Below, piece by piece: positions 33,400 through 59,280 of a stretch of 64,000 bases of DNA. Location: contig NZ_VOLO01000001.1 in NCBI RefSeq assembly GCF_007954365.1, forward strand, positions 248,001 through 312,000, in the 5' to 3' direction. The notes beneath the pieces were generated by a model that was not told where the DNA came from, made no database searches, and saw only the letters and a program-made list of their open reading frames with translations. This DNA is from Frigoribacterium sp. ACAM 257 (lineage in GTDB: Bacteria > Actinomycetota > Actinomycetes > Actinomycetales > Microbacteriaceae). The position numbers and the translations under genes were made by a program. The number at the start of each line of letters is the position of its first letter. Position 1 is the stretch's first letter.

Positions 33400-34146
33400 G
33401 TGACCACGACGACCCCCACCCCTGCACAGGCCCCCCGACTCACCCGGGCCGACGGCTCGCCCCTCAGAGTCCTCGTCGTCGACGACGAGAACAGCCTCAC
33501 CGACCTGCTCTCGATGGCCCTCCGCTACGAGGGGTGGGACGTCAAGGCCGCCGCCGACGGGCAGGGCGCTCTCGCGCTGGCCCGCGAGTTCCAGCCCGAC
33601 GCGATCGTGCTCGACTGGATGCTGCCGGACATCGACGGCATCCAGGTGCTCGGCCGCCTGCGTGCAGGGGGCGACGACACCCCGATCCTGTTCCTCACCG
33701 CGAAGGACTCGGTCGAGGACCGCGTGTCCGGCCTCACCGCCGGCGGCGACGACTACGTCACGAAGCCGTTCTCCCTCGAGGAGGTGGTGGCCCGGCTGCG
33801 AGGCCTCATCCGCCGGTCGGCCTCGGCCGTCAGCGAGGCCGGCGACAGCCGCATCGTCGTCGGCGACCTGGTGCTCGACGAGGAGAGCTACGAGGTGCAC
33901 CGCGGCGACCGCGAGGTCGAGCTGACCGCCACGGAGTTCGAGCTGCTGCGCTTCCTGATGCGCAACCCGCGCCGGGTGCTCAGCAAGGCGCAGATCCTCG
34001 ACCGCGTCTGGAGCTACGACTTCGGCGGCAAGTCGAGCGTCGTCGAGATCTACATCTCGTACCTCCGCAAGAAGATCGACGCGGGTGAAGAGGCGATGAT
34101 CCACACCGTGCGCGGCGTGGGCTACGTCATCAAGCCCACGTCGTGA
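33400..34146 (+). CDS. OmpR/PhoB-family response regulator
   Basis: A 248-residue regulator. After 20 residues comes the receiver domain with DDE at 28-30, phospho-acceptor D72 in IVLDWMLPDIDG and the Lys of YVTKPFS. The C-terminal winged helix starts with VGDLVLDEESYEV and contains LTATEFELLRFLMRNPRRVL and SSVVEIYISYLRKKID, ending HTVRGVGYVIK. It overlaps the kinase gene by four bases. The divergent MacB-like transporter is the probable main target. Confidence 0.95.
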   Translation: MTTTTPTPAQAPRLTRADGSPLRVLVVDDENSLTDLLSMALRYEGWDVKAAADGQGALALAREFQPDAIVLDWMLPDIDGIQVLGRLRAGGDDTPILFLTAKDSVEDRVSGLTAGGDDYVTKPFSLEEVVARLRGLIRRSASAVSEAGDSRIVVGDLVLDEESYEVHRGDREVELTATEFELLRFLMRNPRRVLSKAQILDRVWSYDFGGKSSVVEIYISYLRKKIDAGEEAMIHTVRGVGYVIKPTS

Positions 34147-35729
34147 GCGCGGCCGCACCCGGAGGGTCCCGTCTCGGCGGGCTCCTCGGGCGCGTGCCCC
34201 GCGCCTCCGCCCCCCTCACGCTCCGCAACCGCCTGATCCTCAGCATCGTCGCCATCGTCGTGCTCCTGACCGTGGTCATCGGCACCGTGAGCGTGGTCGC
34301 GCTCCGCGGCTCGCTGATGCGCCAGCTCGACGACGACCTCGCGAGCGCGACCGGCCGGGCCGTGGCCGCCGCCTCCGTCGGGGGATCGTCCGGCCGCCCG
34401 AGCCTGAGTCCGGACAGCGACGCGCTCGGTGCGCCCCGCCAGGCGCCGGGCACCTTCACCGCCGTGCTCGTCGGCGACGTCGTGCAGCAGGCCTTCACCG
34501 TGACCGAGAGCGGCGAGCTCGAGGACCCGCTGACCGACGAGATCACCTCGGCGCTGGCGACCGTGCCCGACGCGGGCGGCCCGGTCACCGTGTCGCTCGG
34601 CTCGGACCTCGGCGGCTACAGGGTCGAGGCCGTCCCCGTGACCCTCACGTCGCGGAGCGGCGGCACCGTGTCGTCGGGCTACCTCGTCGTGGGCCTGCCG
34701 ACCGACAGCGTGACCCAGACCGTCGCCGGGATGATCGCCTCCATCGCCTTCGTCACCCTGCTCGGCCTCGTCGTCGCGATCCTGATCGCCTACGCCGTCG
34801 TGCGGCGGGCGCTGCGGCCCCTCGAGCGGCTGTCGGACACGGCGCTGCGCGTCGCCGAGCTGCCCCTCGACCGCGGCGAGGTCGCGCTCGCCGAGCGCGT
34901 CGACGAGCAGGACACCGACACCCGCACCGAGGTCGGCCGGGTGGGCGCGTCGCTCAACCACATGCTCGGGCACGTCGCGGCGGCGCTGGAGGCGCGGCAG
35001 CAGAGCGAGAACAAGGTGCGGCAGTTCGTCGCCGACGCCTCGCACGAGCTGCGCACCCCCTTGGCGTCCGTCCGCGGCTACGCCGAGCTGACCCGGCGGA
35101 TGGGCACGGGCCTGCCCGACGACGTCGTCTACGCGATGGGCCGCATCGAGTCGGAGTCGCTGCGCATGACGTCGCTCGTGGAGGACCTGCTGCTCCTCGC
35201 CCGCCTCGACGAGGGTCGTGACATCGTCGTGGCCGACGTCGACCTCACCCGCGTCGTGCTCGACGCCGTCAACGACGCAGGGGTGGCCGACCCTGCCCAC
35301 GACGTCGACGTCGTGCTGCCCGACGAGCCGGTGGTCGTGCCGGGCGACGCGATGCGGCTGCACCAGATCGTCGCGAACCTGCTCACCAACTCCCGGACCC
35401 ACACGCCGGAGGGCACGCCCGTGCACGTCGCCCTGGGCGTCGACGAGGTGGCGCGCCGTGCCGTCGTCACGGTGTCCGACGAGGGCCCCGGCATCGACCC
35501 GGCGGTGCTGCCCGTGCTGTTCGAGCGCTTCGCCCGGGCCGACAGCTCGCGGTCGCGCAAGGCCGGCTCGACCGGGCTGGGGCTCGCGATCGTCGAGGCC
35601 GTCGCGCACGCCCACGGCGGCGACGTCGCGGTCTCGAGCAGCCCCGACGGCGCCGCCTTCACGGTGCGCCTCCCGCTCACCGTGCCGCCCGCGCCCGCGC
35701 CCGCGTCGCCGCCTGCCGCTGCCGCCTGA
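34143..35729 (+). CDS. sensor histidine kinase (HisKA type)
   Basis: A 528-residue membrane kinase. TM1 at about residues 32-54 (LILSIVAIVVLLTVVIG) and TM2 near 205-225 flank an extracellular sensor domain of some 150 residues. A HAMP linker follows (VVRRALRPLERLSDTALRVA). The phospho-acceptor box is FVADASHELRTPLASVRGYA, the N box NLLTNSRTHTPEG, and the G boxes VSDEGPGIDP and GSTGLGLAIV. The last 15 residues are an Ala/Pro tail. Likely partner of the regulator just upstream, sensing an envelope-active compound handled by the MacB-like system. Confidence 0.95.
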   Translation: MSAAAPGGSRLGGLLGRVPRASAPLTLRNRLILSIVAIVVLLTVVIGTVSVVALRGSLMRQLDDDLASATGRAVAAASVGGSSGRPSLSPDSDALGAPRQAPGTFTAVLVGDVVQQAFTVTESGELEDPLTDEITSALATVPDAGGPVTVSLGSDLGGYRVEAVPVTLTSRSGGTVSSGYLVVGLPTDSVTQTVAGMIASIAFVTLLGLVVAILIAYAVVRRALRPLERLSDTALRVAELPLDRGEVALAERVDEQDTDTRTEVGRVGASLNHMLGHVAAALEARQQSENKVRQFVADASHELRTPLASVRGYAELTRRMGTGLPDDVVYAMGRIESESLRMTSLVEDLLLLARLDEGRDIVVADVDLTRVVLDAVNDAGVADPAHDVDVVLPDEPVVVPGDAMRLHQIVANLLTNSRTHTPEGTPVHVALGVDEVARRAVVTVSDEGPGIDPAVLPVLFERFARADSSRSRKAGSTGLGLAIVEAVAHAHGGDVAVSSSPDGAAFTVRLPLTVPPAPAPASPPAAAA

Positions 35730-35744
35730 CCTGCGCCCGTCGTG

Positions 35745-35802
35745 CACCCCGGAGTGGACGATGCACCCCGTCGTTACGAGGTGCATCGTCCACTTCGGGG
35801 TG
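35745..35802. repeat. 58-bp palindrome (23-12-23), downstream copy of locus B
   Basis: Arms 35745-35767 and 35780-35802 are complementary at 22 of 23 positions around a 12-base centre. The core word is GGTGCATCGTCCAC (right arm). A second element of the same size and core lies at 36278-36335; between them is the decayed AbiEi/DUF559-type gene. Confidence 0.9.
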
Positions 35803-35847
35803 CCGGGCGCGGGCGCGGGCGCGGGCGCCGCACGAGCCGCCGCCGTC

Positions 35848-36159
35848 ACGCGGCGCGGGTCGACGGGGATTCCCGCTCGCGTGAGCAGGGCGGCGAGGCG
35901 GCGCGGGGCGGACCGCGCTGCCGTGCGACGCCACCGAGCAGGCGGAGCCGAGCACCACGGCCCTCGTCTGCAACACGAGCCGGCCTCGAGGGTCGAGCGC
36001 GTCCCAGGTCGGCTGTTCCACGAAGACGCCTCGGCGCACGCGCACGACCTGGCGGGCCGCGACGGCCCGACGCAGGCTACGAGCCTCGCGCGACTGTGCG
36101 CCGTGCGTGGCGGCGAACGAGAGCGGGACGGTCAGCGGGTCGAGGTCGAGGAGGGGCAT
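35848..36159 (-). pseudogene. AbiEi/DUF559-type gene with an internal deletion
   Basis: From ATG 36159 the minus strand encodes MPLLDLDPLTVPLSFAATHG and then SREARSLRRAVAARQVVRVR, with CSVASHGSAV near residue 65. This aligns with the N-terminal wing-helix part of the intact protein at 58158-59078 (LREAAAAGTLTRLRLGSYVD...VSHVSAAV). Directly after, in another frame, APRRLAALLTRAGIPVDPRR matches that protein's last residues (GALCRRLESHGVRVGRP). About 200 middle codons, including the nuclease-like core, are gone and the frame is broken. Confidence 0.7.
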
Positions 36160-36277
36160 CCCGACACTGTCGGGGACGCGGGCGGTCAGGCGCGCGTCGG
36201 TCGCGCCTCCTGTGGATCGTCGGCGGTCCGTCCACAGCTCGCGGCGATCGGCCGGCACGTGCCTGTAGACCGGCGGA

Positions 36278-36335
36278 CACCTCGCCGTGGACGATGCACC
36301 CCGATACGACGGGGTGCATCGTCCACTACGGGGTG
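36278..36335. repeat. 58-bp palindrome (23-12-23), upstream copy of locus B
   Basis: The right arm is at 36313-36335, the left arm at 36278-36300 (degenerate at its outer end), centre 12 bases. The inner 16 bases, GTGGACGATGCACCCC and complement, pair perfectly. The right arm plus one base matches the element at 35780-35803 at 23 of 24 positions. It starts 119 bp before the start codon of the decayed gene. Confidence 0.9.
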
Positions 36336-36370
36336 CGTAGCGACCGCCGACCGACCGCAAGAGGCGCGAC

Positions 36371-36618: not shown

Positions 36619-37134
36619 ATGGCGAACAAGGAAGCATCGGTCGCCGAGCTCACGGAGAACTTCCGTAGCTCGACCGCCGTTCTGCTCACCGAGTACCGCG
36701 GTCTCACTGTGGCAGAGCTCAAGGAGCTCCGCACCGCCATCAGTGCAGACGCGACGTACGCCGTGGTGAAGAACACGCTCAGCAAGATCGCGGCGAACAA
36801 CGCCGGCATCAGCTCGTTCGACGACGAGCTCGTCGGCCCGTCTGCGATCGCCTTCGTGCACGGAGACCCTGTCGCCGTCGCCAAGAGCATGCGTGACTTC
36901 GCCAAGGCACACCCCGCGCTGATCGTGAAGGGCGGTTACTTCGACGGTAACGCCCTGACCGCAGCCGAGGTCACCAAGCTCGCCGACCTCGAGTCGCGGG
37001 AGGTGCTGCTGGGCAAGCTGGCCGGCGCCTTCAAGGCCTCGCTGTTCGGCGCTGCTTACCTGTTCAACGCTCCGCTGTCGCAGGCCGTCCGCACGGTCGA
37101 GGCGCTGCGCGCGAAGCAGGAAGCCGACAGCTAA
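36619..37134 (+). CDS. rplJ: 50S ribosomal protein L10
   Basis: L10 forms the base of the ribosomal stalk and carries L7/L12 dimers. The 171-residue protein begins [20 protein letters not shown] with the rRNA-binding core ([30 protein letters not shown]) and ends in an L12-binding helix ([13 protein letters not shown]...[12 protein letters not shown]). TTTTAGGAGAGCC supplies the ribosome binding site. rplL follows after 51 bases. Confidence 0.98.
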
Positions 37135-58077: not shown

Positions 58078-58151
58078 CTCGAGGGCGGGTCATCGCGGCC
58101 GAGGGCGGGTCCGCCACGACCCGCCCTCGACGCATCCGACCCGCCCTCGAG
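58078..58151. repeat. palindromic element C1: four GAGGGCGGGT words
   Basis: GAGGGCGGGT at 58081 and 58101, complement ACCCGCCCTC at 58119 and 58139. The gaps are 10, 8 and 10 bases, so the element is symmetric with a 20-bp period on each side. The outer arms extend to CTCGAGGGCGGGT/ACCCGCCCTCGAG. It ends seven bases before the stop codon of the AbiEi/DUF559-type gene. Confidence 0.92.
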
Positions 58152-58157
58152 TCGGGC

Positions 58158-59078
58158 CTAGGACCACGGGCGCCCGACCCGGACGCCGTGCGACTCGAGG
58201 CGGCGACACAGCGCACCGGGCCGCCACGCCTCGTCCCACCCCCAGCGGACCATGTCGTTGCCGAGCCCCCGGAGGTGGTTCTCACGCTCCTTCTCGGCGA
58301 GCACCGCCTCCAGCGCGAACGCCTCGCCCCGGAGCGAGTACTTGTCGTCGCCGTCCGCCTCACCGATGAGGCCGAGGCGTCGCCAGAAGAAGTCGACGTC
58401 GAAGCCGTGGCCGGAGGGCGACGGGAAGGGCTCTTGCCGATCGGGCCTCTCGAGATGCGACTCGAACATGCGGACCGCGCTGAGCGACTCCAGAGGCGAC
58501 CGACTGGCCGGCGACGCGACGACCAGAGCAGCCCGCGCCCGCACGAGTCCGCGTGCTCGTCCGTGTCGGGCGAGCTCGACGGCCAGGGCCTCGGGGTCGA
58601 CGAGACCGCGCGCGAGGGCCGCGTCGATGGCGGCCACGCTCGTGACCAGCGGCTCGGTCAGGGCCACGTCGACCAGCGTCCGGACGATCGGCGTGACGAG
58701 CAGGCCGTCCAGCTCGACCCCCTCGCAGTGCAACCGGCTCCTGTGGGCACGGATCGCCGCCTCAGATCGGCCGCCGTTCACGTCGAAGCGGAGCGAGTCG
58801 GCCTGCTCGACGAGGCGACCGACGAGCGGCAGCCCCCACAGGACCGCTGCCGACACGTGGCTGACGAGGACGTGACGCCGACGGCGCAGCACGACCTCGC
58901 GGACCCTGGTCCTCGCCTGTTCGTCGCGGCGCAGCCCGATCCACTCGGCCGAGTCGACGTAGCTGCCGAGCCGGAGCCTGGTGAGGGTGCCAGCCGCAGC
59001 GGCCTCGCGCAGCTGCGGTGCGTCGAAGCGGTGAGAACGGACGGGCGGGAGAGGGGGCCTGGTGAGAGTCGTGTCCAT
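58158..59078 (-). CDS. AbiEi-like/DUF559-type protein: wing-helix plus PD-(D/E)XK-like nuclease domain
   Basis: A 306-residue protein from ATG 59078. Residues 15-90 look like the AbiEi-type wing-helix domain (FDAPQLREAAAAGTLTRLRL, VSHVSAAVLWGLPLVG). The middle (TPIVRTLVDVALTEPLVTSV, IDAALARGLV) is the usual connector. Residues 225-285 resemble the Vsr/DUF559 nuclease core: FDVDFFWRRLGLIGEADGDD with D229, E240 and D242, K246, then EKERENHLRGLG and VRWGWDEAW. No toxin partner (AbiEii) is adjacent. The gene is bracketed by two palindromic elements of one sequence type. Confidence 0.75.
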   Translation of the reverse strand: MDTTLTRPPLPPVRSHRFDAPQLREAAAAGTLTRLRLGSYVDSAEWIGLRRDEQARTRVREVVLRRRRHVLVSHVSAAVLWGLPLVGRLVEQADSLRFDVNGGRSEAAIRAHRSRLHCEGVELDGLLVTPIVRTLVDVALTEPLVTSVAAIDAALARGLVDPEALAVELARHGRARGLVRARAALVVASPASRSPLESLSAVRMFESHLERPDRQEPFPSPSGHGFDVDFFWRRLGLIGEADGDDKYSLRGEAFALEAVLAEKERENHLRGLGNDMVRWGWDEAWRPGALCRRLESHGVRVGRPWS

Positions 59079-59194
59079 GGGTCGAGCCTCGACCGGACGG
59101 GCGGACCGGCGGGCGACGCCACCGTGAGCTGTGGGCACGTCGCGGCGTCCGCCTCCTCGTGGAGGAAGCACCCCACCAGCCGTGAGCGCGTGCC

Positions 59195-59262
59195 GAGGGC
59201 GGGTCGGATGCGTCGAGGGCGGGTCCGTCGCGACCCGCCCTCGACGCGTCTGACCCGCCCTC
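59195..59262. repeat. palindromic element C2: four GAGGGCGGGT words
   Basis: GAGGGCGGGT at 59195 and 59215, ACCCGCCCTC at 59233 and 59253, gaps 10, 8 and 10 bases: the same plan as element C1. The left half (59195-59224) is an exact 30-bp inverted copy of 58119-58148. It starts 117 bp before the start codon of the gene. Confidence 0.92.
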
Positions 59263-59280
59263 AACGGCGGAAGCGCACAG

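Follow-up and report, generated by a model that had tools for sequence, protein, structure and literature searches.

A probable decayed member of a family of chromosomal gene–palindrome pairs in Frigoribacterium sp. ACAM 257

Why should a broken gene, lying between those for a histidine kinase and ribosomal protein L10 in Frigoribacterium sp. ACAM 257, be enclosed by two copies of one long palindrome? The locus lies in a window (the whole stretch of DNA analysed, 64,000 nucleotides, G000:C6:248001-312000) of a 3.33-Mb genome in 14 contigs, here called G000. A sequence-only reading of the window had taken the locus, together with an intact gene further along, for two occurrences of a modular element made of a gene and its own palindrome pair. 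We followed this up in 16 genomes of the genus, G000 included. The features concerned are the following.

34143 to 35729, plus strand: histidine kinase, left neighbour (ORF; named from its own sequence)
35744 to 35803, no strand: palindrome downstream of the broken gene, 60 bp, 27-6-27, unit GCACCCCG twice per arm, 19 bp apart
35844 to 36159, minus strand: remnant of an AbiEi-Vsr-like gene, codons 1-81 and 310-330 retained
36277 to 36336, no strand: palindrome upstream of the broken gene, same word as 35744 to 35803, outer arm partly decayed
36619 to 37134, plus strand: rplJ (ribosomal protein L10), right neighbour (ORF; named from its own sequence)
58079 to 58150, no strand: palindrome downstream of the intact gene, word CGAGGGCGGGTC four times, period 20
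58158 to 59078, minus strand: intact family member, 306 amino acids, AbiEi-like at about 10-188 and Vsr/I-Bth0305I-like at 194-300
59194 to 59263, no strand: palindrome upstream of the intact gene, word CGAGGGCGGGTC four times, one with a mismatch

Results and discussion

The kinase-rplJ locus

Both palindromes, previously described as 58 bp with a 23-12-23 plan, are real but are better delimited as 60 bp and 27-6-27. The first starts 14 bp past the kinase stop codon, and the consensus of the word reads nCACCCCGnAGTGGACGATGCACCCCG, six variable bases, then the reverse complement. Folded as single strands, the two copies reach -32.9 and -29.3 kcal/mol (z -11.8 and -9.7), values equalled by 0 of 200 shuffles. 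Only six palindromes in the 64-kb window score at least 15, and four of these are the two gene-flanking pairs. A search of Rfam with the palindrome returned sub-threshold matches only, the best being animal miRNA families, which we attribute to the hairpin.

That a broken minus-strand gene lies between them was borne out by its match to an intact protein of a second genome of the genus (G012), with 78% identity over codons 1-81 (about 36153-35911) and 86% over codons 310-330 (about 35906-35844), the latter in a different frame. Approximately 680 bp are absent between the two parts, catalytic core included. A family profile built without the remnant recovered it at E=1.2e-14, and Pfam gave no match for either the remnant or the window protein (58158-59078). 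The direct alignment of the remnant with this window protein, as first proposed, did not hold (a single tblastn row, E 0.29, not collinear); the link between the two runs through the family.

The sequence-only reading had suggested looking in relatives for an intact gene between the same palindromes and for an unoccupied site; an intact gene and short kinase-rplJ gaps were found. The C-terminal tail of the kinase and the start of rplJ are each present in all 16 genomes, and the distance from kinase stop to rplJ start is 246-307 bp in 14 of them (the short sequence itself being read in four, G003, G007, G010 and G011), 889 bp in G000 and 1898 bp in G012. In G012 the site holds an intact 342-codon gene between the same palindromes as in G000. 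The kinase-rplJ locus is thus the wreck of a gene that once stood between two copies of its own palindrome. A long poly-G/poly-C run lies within the upstream palindrome of the intact G012 gene (L069, G012:C1:912800-917000), the outer arms remaining legible; it is probably a sequencing failure at a strong hairpin.

Domains and fold of the family protein

For the model of the intact window protein, mean pLDDT is 89.9 and pTM 0.89. Its residues 10-188 superpose on AbiEi (6y8q) with Z 10.7 over 164 residues (rmsd 7.4), and its residues 194-300 on the catalytic domain of I-Bth0305I (3r3p) with Z 10.9 over 94 residues (rmsd 2.6) and on Vsr (1cw0) with Z 9.7; the nuclease-fold comparison of the catalytic domain gave Z 10.9, 10.3 and 9.7. 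In Foldseek 6y8q came first at E 1.5e-3, weak on its own, with nothing at E <= 1e-3. Of 39 members, 37 are recognised by one of the PADLOC profiles for AbiEi, and Pfam AbiEi_4 was found in all five typed members (E 0.43 to 1.6e-5, one over the cut-off) and, at E <= 0.01, in seven of the 39. The Pfam search of family members returned no match to DUF559, the NCBIfam search nothing useful and the sequence-profile search of the PDB nothing significant. The earlier label AbiEi/DUF559 was therefore right in its AbiEi half, whereas the other half holds only at the level of fold, where it is Vsr-like.

Eight residues are invariant in the 39 members (E197, Q215, D229, E240, D242, G243, K246 and R265), and the acidic ones together with K246 suggest nuclease activity. 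On the strength of the model, the family protein is predicted to join an AbiEi-like DNA-binding part to a PD-(D/E)XK domain like those of Vsr and I-Bth0305I. Vsr functions in mismatch repair, I-Bth0305I in the homing of an intron; they share the fold of residues 194-300, but the domain here is joined to an AbiEi-like region, and the gene stands free between host genes, flanked by its own palindromes.

Palindromes beside the family genes

An eight-member profile found relatives in all 16 genomes, and 75 loci were taken, leaving out 42 rows below 60 bits (the remnant and pieces of split genes among them) and the split gene G008:C75. A palindrome scoring at least 14 lies upstream in 47 of these loci, downstream in 52, on both sides in 35 and on either side in 64, with 11 having none on either side; the maximum was 13.0 in 750 first-order shuffles and 13 in the interiors of the 75 genes. 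Close orthologues (e.g. those of G013 and G015) are not independent in such counts. By chromosomal address, both palindromes occur in at least one locus at 10 of 15 addresses, at least one at 13 and none at two. One of the 35 loci with both palindromes (L077), and with it one of the 10 addresses, is doubtful because its upstream score rests on a poly-G/poly-C run that resembles an assembly error. At address S3, seven of the eight loci carry the downstream palindrome only and the eighth none at this threshold. The coupling of a gene with its own palindrome pair therefore recurs as the sequence-only reading had it, but the palindrome is not confined to the gene (see below); and 'independent recurrence' was the wrong expression, since the loci, being paralogues, are homologous.

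The distance from the upstream palindrome to the start codon is 52-139 bp and falls into two groups (46 loci), a spread that rules out a fixed spacing of 117-119 bp as a signature and deprives the similar spacing at the two window loci (119 and 117 bp) of the meaning once given to it. The downstream palindrome is placed at the stop codon or spans it: in 52 loci its median position is 2.5 bp past the codon (range -40 to +55).

These positions bear on the main rival reading, in which the AbiEi part would act as a repressor on the palindromes as operators, the scattered copies defining its regulon and the nuclease domain being inert or otherwise used. AbiEi, according to PMC7319586, binds two 23-bp inverted repeats separated by 3 bp and so represses its own promoter; the repeats are close in size to the 23-27 bp arms seen here and the upstream position is compatible with a putative binding of the same kind. 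The palindrome at the stop codon, however, could not be an operator of that gene, and the invariance of the candidate catalytic residues also speaks against an inert domain. With the further evidence below, we regard this reading as unlikely, though worth keeping in sight.

Words change with proteins while the geometry mostly holds

In the 38 loci with both palindromes used for this comparison (L077 left out; orthologues not independent), the upstream and downstream words of a locus are alike (median similarity 39). Between loci, word similarity is 7 for proteins below 45% identity and 40 for those above 80%, with 8, 20.5 and 28.5 in the successive classes between; none of 2000 permutations reached the observed mean. 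In 37 of the 38, a palindrome's own partner outscores every locus whose protein is <60% identical. Where the proteins are distant, the words of the loci resemble each other only at chance level, in agreement with the earlier statement that those of the two window loci are unrelated.

The build of the palindromes is more constant. In 60 of 82 arms a direct repeat within the arm exceeds the shuffled 95% level, with a period of exactly 19 bp in 43 of them (L077 left out), so the typical palindrome consists of four short units, two in tandem, a loop and two inverted. Protein and palindrome word thus change together while the geometry mostly holds. Such co-variation would also be expected of a repressor and its operators.

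Dispersed copies of the palindrome

A 17-base arm pattern of the kinase-rplJ word, allowing up to one mismatch, matched 39 times in G000, 35 in G012, 23 in G011 and 23 in G007, and 0-2 times in each of the other 12 genomes; the reversed pattern gave no match in any of the 16. In G000, 16 copies were read in context, of which two are the gene's own and one (L015) has a decayed right arm. Both G007 and G011 have the dispersed word and a short kinase-rplJ site, and no gene of the cognate clade among the fetched members above 150 bits, so that, of the four genomes with the palindrome, G012 alone has the cognate gene intact, and in the other three it is missing or decayed.

Four further words were counted genome-wide, all five being chosen rather than randomly drawn. 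The word of L128 (G012) and L132 (G003) is most frequent in G012 (29) and G003 (20), then G007 (10); that of L131 (G011) and L134 (G007) in G011 (34) and G007 (34), then G003 (19), G004 and G008 (16 each); and that of L091 (G000) and L078 (G007) in G000 (30) and G007 (26), then G011 (4). For each of these three words, two carrier genomes would rank top by chance in one of 120 draws. The word of L005 and L108 is low-copy, nearly confined to its own loci with one extra place in G000, and has scattered two-mismatch matches in G010, G011 and G012. Gene-less dispersed copies were hence found for four of the five words. The copies follow their cognate genes, imperfectly: the 16-19 matches of the L131/L134 word in G003, G004 and G008 and the kinase-rplJ word of G007 and G011 count against a strict partnership.

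Several dispersed sites of the kinase-rplJ word differ between relatives. The L013 site is filled in G000 and G007 and empty in G011; the L026 site is filled in G000 and G007 and empty in G012; the L028 site is filled in G000 and G011 and empty in G007. At L026, G011 has no palindrome, yet what seems to be the outer end of an arm is still present, pointing to the loss of a copy at this site. At L024, G000 and G011 have the kinase-rplJ word and G007 a 60-bp palindrome of another word, similar to that of its own gene L134. No clean target-site duplication or exact insertion boundary was seen at the four dispersed sites compared between relatives, and the pattern of presence and absence, as read in these alignments, may reflect gain as well as loss.

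None of 13 dispersed copies lies inside a called ORF, and nine are within about 75 bp of a 3' end, under rough ORF calling that left several neighbouring genes unclear. Both this location and the presence or absence of copies between close relatives fit poorly with a regulon. Being strong hairpins mostly near gene 3' ends, the palindromes could be thought ordinary transcription terminators that happen to lie beside the genes, but this would leave unexplained the upstream palindrome, the word common to both sides of a gene, its co-variation with the protein and the 19-bp internal period, and we hold it to be very improbable. In the same analysis as the arm repeats, from which copies containing N or belonging to other word families were excluded, the stems of 32 distinct copies comprise 864 cells, of which 783 pair and 81 do not; 23 cells at five positions are changed on both sides, most stem positions hardly varying.

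Some further arrangements were observed around dispersed copies. The intergenic site of L195 (G007:C1:2815800-2816700), L024 and L201 is one and the same, with words that differ by genome and a shared 60-bp plan. The flanks of L016 and L015 (own genome, C6:1349461 and C6:1320511) contain palindromes resembling the words of other family genes (that of L008, TTCCGGAC..., is an example) at distances of up to roughly 160 bp from the kinase-rplJ word, as if different palindromes cluster. The flanks of L013 are parted in G012, one at G012:C1:80-299 (reaching to within 80 bp of the C1 start) and the other inside C2 (G012:C2:154765-154956), which may be a rearrangement or an assembly break at the palindrome.

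Addresses and inheritance of the genes

Comparison of flanks placed the 75 loci at 15 addresses, one of which is occupied in all 16 genomes, and none of the genomes has two family members at one address. On the protein tree (partial gene L144 left out; three rows with long branches), nine label changes, the smallest number possible, account for the ten multi-member addresses (mean after shuffling, 47), with address S4 split between two separate clades. One query protein at E 1e-5 matched two of 72,556 plasmid records and none of 50,697 phage records. The genes are accordingly single-copy per address, mostly vertically inherited and rare on plasmids, and it is the palindrome that varies in number and place.

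These results tell against a transposable element whose ends are the palindromes, moving gene and both ends together and leaving MITE-like derivatives as the scattered copies. The kinase-rplJ site itself, full in one genome, decayed in another and short elsewhere, is what such an element would produce; the addresses that follow clades, their single occupancy, the near absence from plasmids and phages and the lack of a target duplication at the four dispersed sites are not, and we think this reading improbable. The modular element proposed from the window, if taken to move as a unit, likewise finds no support: in the genus the genes stay at fixed addresses.

The universally occupied address, S1 (16 loci, e.g. 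L002, L086, L095 and L111), carries a family gene in every Frigoribacterium genome, with words that differ between several species; L002 and L079 have no palindrome at threshold.

Comparison with known systems and a proposed reading

The well-studied example of a bacterial gene linked with many short palindromes in its genome is REPIN-RAYT. There too the gene is flanked by a palindrome that also has dispersed gene-less intergenic copies, and is single-copy at its own address and mostly vertical (PMC8049555, PMC3733652, PMC8266576); PMC8049555 describes the RAYT gene as single-copy and vertically inherited, its exact function as unknown and the reason why hosts keep such genes as open. The Y1/HUH tyrosine transposase domain (PF01797) is present in none of the 16 genomes (positive control, five of 14 genomes), hence they contain no RAYT, and a RAYT as disperser of the palindromes is ruled out. 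Unlike REPIN-RAYT, the protein here is AbiEi-like with a PD-(D/E)XK domain, and the kinase-rplJ palindrome is 60 bp long with two units 19 bp apart per arm. Its ends lack the GTAG/CGTC tag, the consensus beginning nCACCCCG (tags in other words were judged by eye). TIRtrons, RAYT-like genes between terminal inverted repeats that sometimes also occur elsewhere, resemble the present arrangement, but according to PMC3733652 still use the tyrosine transposase that is absent here.

The resemblance to the AbiE type IV toxin-antitoxin lies in the N-terminal 180 or so residues. The AbiEii nucleotidyltransferase toxin (PF08843) is absent from G000 and from 15 of the 16 genomes in all, so that the genes are not part of a complete AbiE system; the additional nuclease-like domain and the palindromes, on both sides and dispersed, also set them apart. 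The sole AbiEii match among the 16 genomes (G002:C4:134496-135116) lies near a weak AbiEi-like match (G002:C4:135749-136279), and the two probably form a genuine AbiE pair outside the palindrome family. As with a homing endonuclease gene, occupied and short kinase-rplJ sites both exist, cleavage by the protein being putative. Unlike an insertion sequence, the addresses follow gene clades, and no duplication was seen at the four dispersed sites compared.

Among the matches listed in PMC full texts, mostly judged by title and the start of the abstract, with preprints and most subscription journals outside this search, we found no published link of AbiEi/DUF559-type genes to flanking or dispersed palindromes, and the gene–palindrome family is apparently undescribed so far.

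The account that we favour, with some reserve, takes the kinase-rplJ locus for a decayed member of a set of actinomycete chromosomal gene–palindrome pairs in which the AbiEi part would bind the arms, the nuclease would cut and repair would copy the palindrome. By analogy, such a nuclease–palindrome partnership is best read as working like REPIN-RAYT with an unrelated enzyme and repeat. Each gene has a private palindrome word, found ahead of the start codon and again at the stop codon, the usual build being unit-19 bp-unit, loop, inverted unit-19 bp-unit. With its AbiEi part on the 23-27 bp arms, the protein might nick or cut at the palindrome, possibly extruded as a hairpin, and repair or end capture could afterwards place further copies of it in other intergenic regions, chiefly close to the 3' ends of genes. 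Protein and word change in step, and the death of a gene, as by the internal deletion here, would leave its scattered palindromes behind to erode.

A bolder version is that this is a second, independently evolved REPIN-like partnership, in which an AbiEi-derived DNA-binding protein fused to a nuclease of Vsr type recognises a palindrome of four units and disperses it across the genomes of actinomycetes, protein and word co-evolving so fast that orthologues of neighbouring species differ in word; we put its chances at about even. If true, it would be a domesticated nuclease system whose enzyme acts on double-stranded DNA (or cruciforms), unlike the single-strand HUH enzyme of RAYTs. Having a second case, found in Actinomycetes and built on an unrelated protein, would mean that such arrangements arise repeatedly and would make it possible to compare their function. 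The dozens of natural protein–word pairs with a common geometry would in addition allow the recognition code of AbiEi-type DNA-binding regions to be read.

Family members outside the genus

Of 46 named loci, 34 come from other organisms, all labelled Actinomycetes except L175 (Stenotrophomonas). Seventeen of the 34 have a palindrome scoring at least 14, seven of them on both sides, and the other 17 have none on either side. In the corresponding shuffles (n=368), 95% lay at 9.5 and the maximum was 15.5, reached by one or more, so that single weak cases prove little; the palindromes of L177, L186 and L190, among the 17, are weak or oddly placed. L175 (JACEFY010000146.1, Stenotrophomonas maltophilia P13) is a 6-kb contig bearing an otherwise actinomycete family and is possibly a contaminant. 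The loci with palindromes on both sides belong to Curtobacterium (two), Naasia, Amnibacterium, Propionicimonas, Williamsia and Nocardioides.
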